Source: Methanooceanicella nereidis (lineage in GTDB: Archaea; Halobacteriota; Methanocellia; Methanocellales; Methanocellaceae). Taken from it: a stretch of DNA of 64,000 nucleotides. The DNA lies in the NCBI RefSeq assembly GCF_021023085.1, contig NZ_PGCK01000001.1, positions 62,001 through 126,000 of the forward strand. Direction: 5' to 3'. Below the pieces are notes generated by a model. It worked only from the letters and a program-made list of their open reading frames with translations, searched no databases and was not told the origin of the DNA. The first letter of the stretch is position 1. The number at the start of each line of letters is the position of its first letter. The position numbers and the translations under genes were made by a program. Below are positions 3,836 to 52,675 of this stretch, piece after piece.

Positions 3836-4364
3836 TTTTCCTGATCACACCAGCCCTGTATAGCCTGTTCAAAAGTATCGATGCTATCAGGCCGCCGAGT
3901 CCCCCGAAAATAAAGTGGGAGACCGATGCAAGGCCTATACCCATCAGGATAAATGAGGCGGGTACGCCCAGCATAACGTCCACATAGTAGTTGACGACCA
4001 TTTTTGAGAGATTCCCGGCTGCGCCTAACATGATCCCTACAATTGGGTTTGTAAGATGACCTTTGAATACCTGCCCGAGCACGTCTATGGTGATCCCCAT
4101 GGTGAGATATTTAAAAAAGTCAAATATCCCTGAGTCGCCCATGCCCAGGAAAGCTGCGAGCACGCCTGATATGAAGCCGATATACGTACCCGAGCCGGGG
4201 CGGGATACGATCGCTACCCCAAGGATTATAGGTATGACCCAGAATAGCCCGCTCTTACCCGGAATGTGCATCGGCACCCTGAGGTATACGCGCAATATGA
4301 ACACGAGCGCGCCCAACAGCGACAGTATCGTGAGCTCATAAAGGGAAAAATATGTTTTTCTCAT
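3807..4364 (-). CDS. ECF transporter substrate-binding S component (YkoE-like)
   Basis: A 185-residue, very hydrophobic protein with about five to six membrane segments and few charges, the right size and character for an ECF S component. The fused A-A ATPase gene starts inside its 3' end and the T component follows, which is the main evidence for the role. The gene order matches the YkoEDC hydroxymethylpyrimidine/thiamine importer. No thiamine riboswitch is apparent upstream, so the substrate remains open. A short hydrophilic tail (RKNEQRTPDRS) ends the protein. Confidence 0.8.
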   Translation of the reverse strand: MRKTYFSLYELTILSLLGALVFILRVYLRVPMHIPGKSGLFWVIPIILGVAIVSRPGSGTYIGFISGVLAAFLGMGDSGIFDFFKYLTMGITIDVLGQVFKGHLTNPIVGIMLGAAGNLSKMVVNYYVDVMLGVPASFILMGIGLASVSHFIFGGLGGLIASILLNRLYRAGVIRKNEQRTPDRS

Positions 4365-14102: not shown

Positions 14103-14729
14103 ATGTCACGCATTAAAGGCCTCATTTTCGATCTTGACGGCACCATTATCGATAATGACGAAAGGTACATGGAGCTTATGCTGTCCCGCGTCGGCAAGGA
14201 GCTGGGCCGCAGCCTGACTCTTGACCATGCAAGGCAGCTATGGTACTCCATGAACGCCGTATCAAGGGACGAGGTAATATCAAGATGGGGCCTTGACCCT
14301 GACGAGTTCTGGGCGATCTTTAACACATTTGAAAACTTGCAGGAAAAGCTGAACAGTACCTATCTTCATAAGGACGCCCCTTTTCTTAAAAGTATAGACT
14401 TGCCTAAGAGCATAGTCACTCACACCACATATGATCACACGGATAATCTTTTAAAGCTCGTAGGCATGAGGGACCTTTTCAACCCGATAATCTCCTGTAC
14501 CGAAGACCTGGGATTTAAGCCGTCCCCGCTCCCCCTTATACATTGTGTCGTAAACATGAAGCTAACCGTTGACGAGGTCATATTCGTCGGCGACACCATC
14601 TCCGATATGCTCGCTGCCAAAGACGCAGGTATAAAAAGCGTTTACATAAACCGATTCAAAAGGCCGATAGACTACAAGCCAGACTATGAGATAGATAGCC
14701 TGGAAAAGATAGCGGAAATAATAAAATAG
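14103..14729 (+). CDS. HAD-superfamily hydrolase (phosphoglycolate phosphatase-like)
   Basis: Starting at ATG 14103 the protein begins MSRIKGLIFDLDGT, with the nucleophile and acid/base aspartates of HAD motif I (DxDGT) near residues 10-12. Motif II threonine is in IVTHTTYDH, motif III lysine in GFKPSPLP, and motif IV acidic residues in FVGDTISDM. A helical cap domain lies between motifs I and II. About 208 residues is normal for Gph-like phosphatases. An upstream in-frame TTG (14073) would add ten residues with no ribosome-binding support. The substrate is unknown. The gene is followed by a structured repeat. Confidence 0.88.
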   Translation: MSRIKGLIFDLDGTIIDNDERYMELMLSRVGKELGRSLTLDHARQLWYSMNAVSRDEVISRWGLDPDEFWAIFNTFENLQEKLNSTYLHKDAPFLKSIDLPKSIVTHTTYDHTDNLLKLVGMRDLFNPIISCTEDLGFKPSPLPLIHCVVNMKLTVDEVIFVGDTISDMLAAKDAGIKSVYINRFKRPIDYKPDYEIDSLEKIAEIIK

Positions 14730-14788
14730 CGCTATTTACAGATCAAGACTTTTTTCAATTGAATTTATTAATAATCTTTATAGCTTCA

Positions 14789-15018
14789 GCCGCGTTCGGC
14801 GAGATGTTTAGGGTTTGCCCGCAGCGAGCGAACGAAGTGAGCGAGCGAAGGGATGCGTAGATGGCAGGGTAATGAGCGCGGCGTCAGTCCGCGCTGCTTA
14901 GGGCTTGCGAGCAGAACTCGGCGAAGCCGGAGTTCTGCGGGGTGCAAGCCCGGCCCTGACATCGAAGCACCCTAAACACCGAGTAGCGAGGCCAAAAGGC
15001 CGAGCGTCGAACCGCGTG
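14789..15018 (+). ncRNA. candidate structured RNA, copy 1 of a dispersed ~230 nt element
   Basis: GC-rich block between the HAD gene and the SRP RNA gene, about 230 nt, with a second copy at 34801-35025. Complementary segments form a multi-branched fold: 14791-14798 with 15008-15016, 14805-14814 with 14969-14978, 14860-14869 with 14954-14963 (one mismatch), 14875-14881 with 14889-14895 (loop CGTCAGT), 14901-14908 with 14944-14951, and 14911-14919 with 14930-14938. The two copies differ at paired positions so that pairing is kept. The plus strand is favoured because internal loops are tandem G-A pairs (GCGAGC...GCGAGC). No ORF. Function unknown. Confidence 0.7.
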
Positions 15019-15131
15019 AAAAAATAAAGAAGGGACTACTAGATATAACTAGCAGGGAACAACCAAAAACAAAAACAACAAAATAATCAAGATCCAGAGC
15101 ATGAAAACAAAATCAAGAATATAATATCAAG

Positions 15132-15444
15132 CGGCGAACACACCATCGGTCGACGCTCTACCACATGGAAGTTATCTTACTCCTGTCCTCCAATCCGCTA
15201 CCCCACAAGCGTTAGTTGTTCACGGTAAGCATGCTCCCTTCCGGGCCTGTGCCGGTTTCCGCAATTAAGCCAGGCCACATGCTCTCCAGCATGAGGACTT
15301 GACACCGCCAACCCAGCAGGACGGATCTTCACAGTCGAGAAATAAGGCCTCCATACAATAGAAACGCCTTCTTCAGGCTTCGTCCCTCGCATACCGACGA
15401 TTTCGAGTTACAGGTAACGCCGAGTCACCCAGACTAGTTCGCCA
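15132..15444 (-). ncRNA. ffs: SRP RNA (archaeal 7S RNA)
   Basis: Read on the minus strand, the sequence has the hallmarks of archaeal 7S RNA. The 5' domain matches the family (GACTCGGCGTTACCTGTAAC, then GTCGGTATGCGAGG). Helix 6 is CATGCT-GGAG-AGCATG, with the GNAR loop that binds SRP19. Helix 8 reads GGAAACCGG followed by CAGGCCCGGAAGGGAGCA, the SRP54-binding symmetric and asymmetric loops with a GGAA tetraloop. The ends pair as helix 1: GGCGAAC (15437-15443) with GTTCGCC (15133-15139). About 313 nt is the usual length. Ends were set from helix 1 and may be off by a few bases. Confidence 0.93.
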
Positions 15445-34800: not shown

Positions 34801-35025
34801 GCCGCGTTCGGCAGAGGTTTTTCAGGTCTGCCCGAGCAAAGCGAGGGGTGCGTAGATGGCAGGGTAATGGACGCCGCCTCAGTCGGCGTCGCTTAGGGCT
34901 TGCGAGCATAACAGAGCGAAGCGAATGTTATGCGGTATGCAAGCCCGGCCCTGCCATCGAAGCACCTGAAAAACCGGAGTAGCGGGGAAGCGAACGAAGA
35001 GAGCGAACGAGCGTCGAACCGCGTG
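34801..35025 (+). ncRNA. candidate structured RNA, copy 2 of a dispersed ~230 nt element
   Basis: Second copy of the element at 14789-15018. Corresponding helices: 34816-34827 with 34964-34975 (12 bp, GGTTTTTCAGGT), 34855-34864 with 34949-34958 (10 bp), 34870-34876 with 34884-34890 (loop CCTCAGT), 34896-34903 with 34939-34946 and 34906-34913 with 34926-34933. The loop and junction sequences (TGCGTAGATGGCAGGGTAAT, CTTAGGGCTTGCGAGCA) are nearly identical to copy 1, while stem bases change in pairs. It lies between the photolyase gene and the minus-strand tRNA-Ser. No ORF. Confidence 0.7.
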
Positions 35026-35094
35026 AAAGAATAAATTAAAGATAAACAAAAAGAACGAGAGTCGAACAACGAAAAAGAATAACTATTAGACGCA

Positions 35095-35120
35095 GGAAAA
35101 CTTTTTTCAAAAAGTTTTCC
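35095..35120 (-). terminator. 12 bp hairpin, terminator-like
   Basis: GGAAAACTTTTT (35095-35106) pairs with AAAAAGTTTTCC (35109-35120) around a two-base loop. It lies downstream of tRNA-Ser in the minus-strand direction and may end transcription of the spc-operon/tRNA unit. Confidence 0.45.
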
Positions 35121-35148
35121 GCTGGCCTTTCAAAAACTTTTAACGGTA

Positions 35149-35167
35149 GCAACTCCTGCGGAGTTGC
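35149..35167 (-). terminator. 8 bp hairpin downstream of tRNA-Ser
   Basis: GCAACTCC (35149-35156) and GGAGTTGC (35160-35167) form a perfect stem with a TGC loop, 35 bases after the tRNA 3' end on the minus strand. A T-rich stretch follows on that strand. Confidence 0.4.
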
Positions 35168-35201
35168 AAAATGATTTCTAAAAGAATAATAAAATAGAAA
35201 G

Positions 35202-35309
35202 CGCCGGGGAAGGGACTCGAACCCTTGCGAGAGTTGCCCCTCACAAGCTCACTGGTCATCCTCATAAAGGAATTTCCAGGCTTGCGCCTTACCACTAGAC
35301 TACCCCGGC
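35202..35309 (-). tRNA. tRNA-Ser (GGA) with 24 nt intron
   Basis: Minus-strand acceptor GCCGGGG pairs with CCCCGGC, discriminator G. Anticodon stem CAAGC pairs with GCTTG; the loop starts CTGGAA, giving anticodon GGA. A 24 nt insertion (about 35243-35266) follows position 37. Exon CTGG pairs with intron CCAG, with three-base bulges AAA and TGA, matching the archaeal bulge-helix-bulge splice motif. A long variable arm is present and the T arm is AAGGG-TTCGAGT-CCCTT. No CCA is encoded. It lies just after cbf5 at the end of the ribosomal superoperon. Confidence 0.92.
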
Positions 35310-51832: not shown

Positions 51833-52675
51833 TTACCAGACAAGATTGAAGAGACCCAGTGTAATATATACTGCCTCTTCCGTACGCACCGTGGCTGCGC
51901 CCTGATCTGGTATGGAATTCACCACGTAATCGGAACTGTCCTTAATATTGTGTCCTTCGTCGTGTAAAACAGACTCTACTCCCTTGCTGGGGCTTCCGAA
52001 TATAAAGTGTACCTTATCCCTCGTTTTATTTTTGATCTCGGATAGCGTCGCCTGGTCGAGCATTTGGCCAAACCGGGAGGTGGCTATCCTTAAGCCATCG
52101 GCATCCTTTAATTCTTCATGTAGCGTATTTGCTATACGCACATTATAACCCCAGTACAGCGGGATATCTCTTTTATCCACGAGCTGAACCGTTATTGGTC
52201 TTCGCGAAAAGATCCTGACCGATATGCGCTCTCCTGTATGTAGTTGCCTGCCGTGTGGCGGCTTCAGGAGGACCGGGCTGTCGAGACCGACATCGACCCA
52301 AACGCTCTGGTCAGATCCTACCTTGGTCACAATACCTTCTCGGTATTCCTCTTCGTTTTTGAGTAAGTCGCTGACAGCATGATGGGGTGTCCTTAACGGT
52401 GGAATTACCCCGCAAAAACGCAGGTTGTCTTGCATAGGGAATAGCTTTTTCCGCAGATATGGCGGACATTCCGCATAGCGCAAGACGGTACTTATAAACT
52501 TGCTGTCATCAAGTCCTTTGGTCTTGTATATTACAATCTCATCGACCCGGAATATGGAAGCGGCCCTCGCGATCTGGCCGACTTTATATGTCCTTATTCT
52601 TGGATCAGGACTTTCCTCGGTTAAAGAGGATGGGATGAGTAGGTTTATAAGTGTCTTTCCACGGTTGACACTCAT
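51833..52675 (-). CDS. SPOUT-class RNA methyltransferase (COG2106 type)
   Basis: 280 residues: an N-terminal SPOUT half (LINLLIPSSLTEESPDPRIR, ARAASIFRVDEIVIYKTKGL), an inserted OB-like segment (GIVTKVGSDQSVWVDVGLDS) and a C-terminal knotted SAM-binding part (DKVHFIFGSPSKGVESVLHD, VVNSIPDQGAATVRTEEAVY). This is the family regularly found just upstream of L3 in euryarchaea; it probably methylates rRNA, but the site is unproven. A TATA box near 52711 serves it and perhaps the whole superoperon. Confidence 0.9.
   Translation of the reverse strand: MSVNRGKTLINLLIPSSLTEESPDPRIRTYKVGQIARAASIFRVDEIVIYKTKGLDDSKFISTVLRYAECPPYLRKKLFPMQDNLRFCGVIPPLRTPHHAVSDLLKNEEEYREGIVTKVGSDQSVWVDVGLDSPVLLKPPHGRQLHTGERISVRIFSRRPITVQLVDKRDIPLYWGYNVRIANTLHEELKDADGLRIATSRFGQMLDQATLSEIKNKTRDKVHFIFGSPSKGVESVLHDEGHNIKDSSDYVVNSIPDQGAATVRTEEAVYITLGLFNLVW

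Follow-up and report, generated by a model that had tools for sequence, protein, structure and literature searches.

Two related blocks in the window

The stretch of DNA analysed here (the window) comprises 64,000 nt of Methanooceanicella nereidis (NZ_PGCK01000001.1, assembly GCF_021023085.1, positions 62,001-126,000 of the forward strand). It contains two similar blocks that differ at paired positions. We asked whether these blocks represent an RNA structure under selection, what kind of element they belong to, and how its copies are placed in the genome.

Both blocks were present as described in the initial annotation, and their exact edges are listed in Table 1. The paired changes reported there were correct for the closing helix (TGTTTAGGGT/ACCCTAAACA versus TTTTTCAGGT/ACCTGAAAAA) and for a hairpin (AGCGCGG/CCGCGCT versus GACGCCG/CGGCGTC). 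The description as a two-copy element holds inside the window but not genome-wide. A BLAST search of the M. nereidis genome (G000; 3.19 Mb, 41 contigs) with copy 1 as the query detected 15 full copies and one truncated fragment, and weaker relatives were found in two further genomes of the family. The initial annotation also lacked the dispersal of the copies, their sharp bounds, their confinement to one class and their preference for facing the 3' ends of tRNA and SRP RNA genes. It had overlooked the SRP RNA gene near copy 1 (~115 nt away) and the intron-containing tRNA gene near copy 2. The element itself matches neither RF00005 (tRNA) nor RF01857 (SRP RNA), in agreement with the earlier statement that it is neither; these RNAs are only its neighbours in the window.

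Table 1 Features of the two copies in the window and of neighbouring genes.
Feature	Position	Strand	Basis or partner
Copy 1, P1 to P1'	14791..15016	+	sequence, BLAST
P1 closing helix, 5' strand CGCGTTCGGCG	14791..14801	+	sequence; P1 pairing counted over 38 copies
P2, 5' strand	14805..14814	+	covariation alignment, helix 1
P3 variable hairpin, GA/GA mismatches, length varies among copies	14815..14852	+	
Conserved GNA/GNA 3x3 internal loop, 5' side	14857..14859	+	partner 14964-14966
P4, 5' strand (GATG-G-CAGGG)	14860..14869	+	partner 14954-14963; helix 4
Junction TAATG; AATG invariant in the 25-copy alignment	14870..14874	+	
P5 hairpin, strong covariation	14875..14895	+	helices 5 and 6
P6 hairpin GGGCTTGC...GCAAGCCC, variable tip	14901..14951	+	helix 7
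GNA/GNA 3x3 internal loop, 3' side	14964..14966	+	partner 14857..14859
P2, 3' strand	14969..14978	+	covariation alignment, helix 1
GAGTAG and hairpin P7, between P2' and P1'	14980..15004	+	
P1 closing helix, 3' strand CGTCGAACCGCG, one bulged C	15005..15016	+	
Archaeal SRP RNA gene, 3' end facing copy 1	15132..15444	-	Rfam RF01857, 205.9 bits
tRNA-Leu gene	28184-28100	-	Rfam at gathering score
Copy 2 (P2 to P2' = 34815-34974)	34803..35023	+	
Copy 2 A-rich tail, one decayed P1' repeat (GAGAGTCGAACAACG)	35024..35092	+	
Intron-containing tRNA gene, 3' end facing copy 2	35202..35309	-	Rfam RF00005

Distribution of the family

The sample of the class Methanocellia consisted of four genomes: M. nereidis, Methanocella arvoryzae MRE50 (RC-I; G001, 3,179,916 bp), Methanocella paludicola (G002, 2,957,635 bp) and a draft relative (G003). 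A covariance model, R1, was built on 25 copies (alignment A1); its E-values are rough owing to a short calibration. It matched 15 sites in M. nereidis, 18 in M. arvoryzae, 8 in M. paludicola and one in G003, which may be an undercount because this draft is split into 220 contigs. The element is thus a ~220-base RNA structure with 1 to 18 copies per genome. The family also includes one truncated copy (L024) and degenerate copies (L084 and L085).

Among the genomes searched, the family is confined to Methanocellia. No match was obtained in other genomes of the phylum, 193 of which were searched with R1 and 390 with R2 (overlapping sets, stricter filters), and nothing was found in phage and plasmid records or viral contigs. 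Two sequence-pattern scans covered a collection of genome contigs that seems not to include this class. The first, with a pattern identical to M. paludicola copies, gave no match; the second returned 17 scattered bacterial matches, approximately the number expected by chance, none of which fits the covariance model.

No Rfam 15 family matched the element at the gathering score, either in the window or at the loci of the four genomes, and no identified transposon end was matched. A permissive Rfam search of 14700-15100 gave only hits far below threshold (radC, 19.4 bits on the minus strand; SCARNA7; DnaX). We found no literature pairing Methanocella with structured RNAs or repetitive sequence, and the sole mention of a repeat in the M. 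paludicola genome paper is a cluster upstream of cdc6 (PMC3146512). Most likely the element is either an RNA-like mobile repeat not described before or a non-coding RNA of a new kind.

Fold and covariation

In the consensus fold, P1 with its bulged C encloses P2, the variable P3, P4 with the 3x3 loop, a three-way junction from which P5 and P6 extend, and then P7 before P1'. Both window copies folded better than dinucleotide shuffles (z = -5.0 and -4.8, with 0/200 shuffles as good), and this was seen on either strand. In alignment A1, 96.5% of the stem cells were paired. Changes on both sides were observed in 17/39 stem pairs, compared with 9.3 in shuffles and at most 5 with slid helices, and 78 cells were doubly changed, compared with 20 in shuffles and 2-13 in slid versions. 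For cells paired, for pairs and cells changed on both sides and for the covariation score, the 25 copies exceeded all 500 shuffles and all slid controls. RNAalifold, run unaided, recovered much the same core, with compensatory changes in 22 pairs. The proposal of selection on RNA structure held on 41 copies in four genomes, and covariation persisted in the further copies. RNA-level constraint on the element is well supported. A protein-coding reading was rejected, as the signal sits in base pairing and none of the ORFs runs through the element consistently.

The pair just outside the P1 core was C-G in 19, A-T in 7, mismatched in 10 and a wobble in 2 of the 38 copies. Among the stem changes private to single M. 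nereidis copies we counted four double compensations, one wobble and seven breaks, the last mostly in the decaying copy L018. Single copies thus seem to keep the fold after dispersal, although the numbers are small.

The palindromic stretch GAGCGAACGAAGTGAGCGAGC in P3 (14824-14848) was matched at 24/24 bases in other genomes of the phylum, which suggests that a separate, widespread short palindrome was captured in P3.

The strand of the RNA was evaluated using 41 copies from the four genomes. The 3x3 loop reads GNA/GNA, with varying middle letters, in 35 of them. Two sheared G-A pairs would explain this conserved loop on the plus strand; the opposite strand would read TNC/TNC. With one non-pair and a hairpin of poor alignment set aside, the stem columns containing G-U outnumbered those containing A-C, an excess that by itself is only suggestive. 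Taken together, the loop and the wobbles favour a plus-strand RNA, the orientation assigned in the initial annotation.

Edges, tails and dispersal

The M. nereidis copies are homologous from P1 onwards, and the sequences upstream of it are unrelated. The element is sharply bounded by this closing helix, whose arms pair in nearly all 38 copies as terminal inverted repeats with a conserved bulge. Target-site duplications were not found at the copies; exact repeats of 2-9 nt were not clearly above random pairing of flanks.

Many copies are followed by tandem repeats consisting of the P1 3' strand (P1', Table 1) and an A-rich spacer. The repeat unit is 39 nt in L017 and L022, 48 nt in L010 and L021, and 28 nt in L016 (about a dozen units); additional P1' units are present in L072, L074, L076 and L080 of M. 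arvoryzae. Within one copy the units are near-identical, and those of different copies differ, a pattern that slippage would produce.

Three head-to-head pairs in M. arvoryzae have ~550 nt in common at 67-83%. Because flanks are not shared, these ~550-nt units have spread in M. arvoryzae and a truncated copy exists, we conclude that the element is dispersed.

In the head-to-head pairs (L072, L074 and L075) the 5' ends lie 22-47 nt apart, and each pair has dispersed as a single unit. At L076, the truncated partner of such a pair is still present. A tandem array of 24-nt units (GCCTAACCATCGTTATACTTGTAG) lies upstream of the element at L032 in M. paludicola, where the copy shares its upstream flank with other copies.

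Position beside tRNA and SRP RNA genes

Neighbouring features were tRNAs and simple ORFs of at least 90 aa rather than gene-finder predictions. The tail side faces a convergent 3' end in 32/41 copies. In M. nereidis, 12 of the 15 copies face the 3' end of a tRNA or SRP RNA gene. L012 is included in this count, as a later insertion (1.7 kb, with 55-bp inverted ends and a 14-bp duplication) came between the element and its tRNA-Glu. Outside these 12, L022 abuts a decayed tRNA-Leu that is 86% identical to an intact gene nearby. In M. paludicola, 5/8 copies face a tRNA and one more is located upstream of a tRNA; in M. arvoryzae the number facing a tRNA is only 2/18. The probability of these counts was about 1e-13 for M. 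nereidis, 7e-7 for M. paludicola and 0.08 for M. arvoryzae, values that indicate order of magnitude only, as the crude null of random intergenic sites assumed its fractions from coding densities and ignored insertion tolerance. The element shows a preference for convergent 3' flanks, above all those of tRNA and SRP RNA genes, in two of the three well-sampled genera.

Most tRNA genes have no element, the SRP loci of the three other genomes lack it, and no decayed tRNA was found beside M. arvoryzae copies in 10 loci. Four orthologous tRNA loci carry copies across genera: tRNA-Asp, tRNA-Met and tRNA-Glu in M. nereidis and M. paludicola, and tRNA-Gly in M. arvoryzae and M. paludicola. At tRNA-Met, M. 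arvoryzae has a copy on the other side of the gene. Despite these common loci, copies are most similar to those of the same genome, a pattern compatible with ancient insertions that conversion has homogenised, or with recurrent insertion at preferred sites.

A copy of the tRNA 3' end beyond the insertion, as left by att-type integration, was present at only 1 of the 18 facing loci: L015, with a decayed tRNA-Met copy (40 nt matched at 97.5%). A tRNA-targeted integrative element using tyrosine integrase att sites was rejected on this basis.

Several further observations concern these tRNA loci. The remnant at L015 lies beyond the element at about 4281-4343, and the tRNA-Leu pseudogene at L022 (3576-3661) is located between the element and the intact tRNA-Leu. 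The insertion at the tRNA-Glu 3' end (L012:4393-6148) has inverted ends beginning GGGGATATATATTGTCCCC... and the direct duplication TACAAAATAGTGCT; its 371-aa ORF encodes no known transposase but an AlkZ-like DNA glycosylase (PF06224). Another repeat, 80 nt long and unrelated to the element, occupies 35093-35172 of the window and contains a AACTTTTTTCAAAAAGTT hairpin and a GCAACTCC..GGAGTTGC hairpin. Its 8 copies in M. nereidis lie about 20-55 nt behind tRNA 3' ends, and copies in M. paludicola and G003 follow tRNAs at a comparable or smaller spacing. It is found at tRNAs without the element too.

Possible origin and role

The reading that we favour, to which we give about an even chance, is a dispersed, non-autonomous, RNA-structured repeat that resembles BOX repeats, prefers tRNA 3' flanks and is moved in trans. 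The element would be, or would have been, mobile through machinery that must recognise the folded RNA. Copies might persist behind tRNA genes either because an insertion at such a site costs the host little or because the machinery is attracted to it, and the A-rich tail would grow by slippage. Several findings count against mobility: the missing target-site duplications, the presence of copies at shared tRNA loci (Asp, Met, Glu, Gly) across genera, and the pairing kept by individual copies, as a useful host RNA would keep it. The enzymes searched for also speak against it. Reverse transcriptase (PF00078) was found in 0/4 genomes, and SINE-like spread by a common, present reverse transcriptase was rejected for this reason. 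Y1 transposase occurs once each in M. nereidis and G003 and is lacking in M. arvoryzae (18 copies) and M. paludicola (8 copies); with two copy-rich genomes devoid of it, IS200/IS605 (Y1) was rejected as a common mobiliser. A past reverse transcriptase or another enzyme may have moved the element.

The same placement could instead reflect service to the host, an alternative that we regard as possible but doubtful. In this view, RNA transcribed from the plus strand, in many cases as the 3' UTR of a gene ending just upstream, would fold where it borders a convergent gene for a tRNA, the SRP RNA or a protein, and would block antisense read-through or stabilise the 3' end. A same-strand gene ends 3-60 nt upstream of many copies (3 nt for L081, 7 for L077, 10 for L013, 17 for L079, 25 for L083, 29 for L017, 36 for L073 and 40 for L023), and such a role is also consistent with the convergent 3' ends faced by most tails, the orthologous tRNA genes flanked in different genera and the four private double compensations in M. 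nereidis. However, the upstream gene is divergent in about a third of the copies and six copies stand head to head at close distance, so that the element would receive no incoming transcript and promoters would have little space, and a search for a positioned TATA box upstream of the element found none. The majority of tRNA genes do without the element, its side at tRNA-Met differs between genera, and copy number varies widely.

Two further explanations were weighed. Archaeal MITEs and PATE-type elements are short, non-coding and dispersed, with inverted ends, and the element is like them in all of these respects. If it were such a MITE, a DNA transposase would cut at the P1 strands as imperfect terminal inverted repeats, and the fold would matter only as a DNA hairpin or cruciform. 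The P1 arms are indeed near-inverted repeats (GCGGTCGNCG / GCGGGTCGACG) that coincide with the edges of dispersal, and head-to-head pairs move as one unit. This explanation is nevertheless improbable: duplications are absent, two host genomes have no Y1 transposase, a typical MITE does not keep a branched interior such as this covarying fold, and the GNA/GNA loop, the G-U wobbles and the conserved junction letters indicate a plus-strand RNA. Least probable is that the paired changes arose without selection, through quasi-palindrome correction (a switch of template from one hairpin arm to the other) and gene conversion among copies. P5 and P6 modules occur in mixed combinations among copies of one genome, so conversion probably occurs. 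Yet P2 covaries with arms about 150 nt apart, the outer pair of P1 covaries too, and the unpaired letters of the junction do not vary between genera, in contrast to the helices.

Comparison with known elements

By analogy, the nearest behaviour in the literature is that of the BOX repeats of Streptococcus pneumoniae, which are over-represented between convergent genes (PMC3049150). BOX repeats are likewise small, dispersed and non-coding, with a predicted RNA fold, a tandem-array module, a preference for convergent genes and an uncertain mobiliser (PMC3049150). In contrast, the present element is archaeal, carries its tandem module in the 3' tail beyond the fold, and strongly prefers tRNA and SRP RNA 3' flanks; the comparison is one of behaviour only. 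For position only, the TRE3 and Skipper-2 retrotransposons of dictyostelids are comparable, as they prefer the region ~100 bp downstream of tRNA genes (PMC5006619). These are eukaryotic and encode their own proteins, whereas the element has no ORF and RVT_1 occurs in none of the four genomes.

The element adds a large, well-supported RNA fold to a cultivable methanogen class where Rfam has nothing. Its position behind tRNA genes poses the question of whether mobile RNAs of prokaryotes are directed to stable-RNA genes in the manner of eukaryotic retroelements, or whether an archaeal structured RNA separates convergent transcripts. We consider unlikely one specific form of the former, in which an enzyme reading the folded RNA would guide an element spreading in trans to tRNA and SRP RNA 3' flanks. 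Such an element would be the prokaryotic equivalent of the yeast and amoeba retroelements that target tRNA genes. As the M. paludicola and M. arvoryzae genomes are complete, both answers can be tested by ordinary RNA-seq and strain comparison.

Elsewhere in the window, an L4-Archaeoglobi ribosomal protein leader was detected above the Rfam gathering score at 52215-52314 on the minus strand, outside Archaeoglobi. The same leader is present in G003 (L086).
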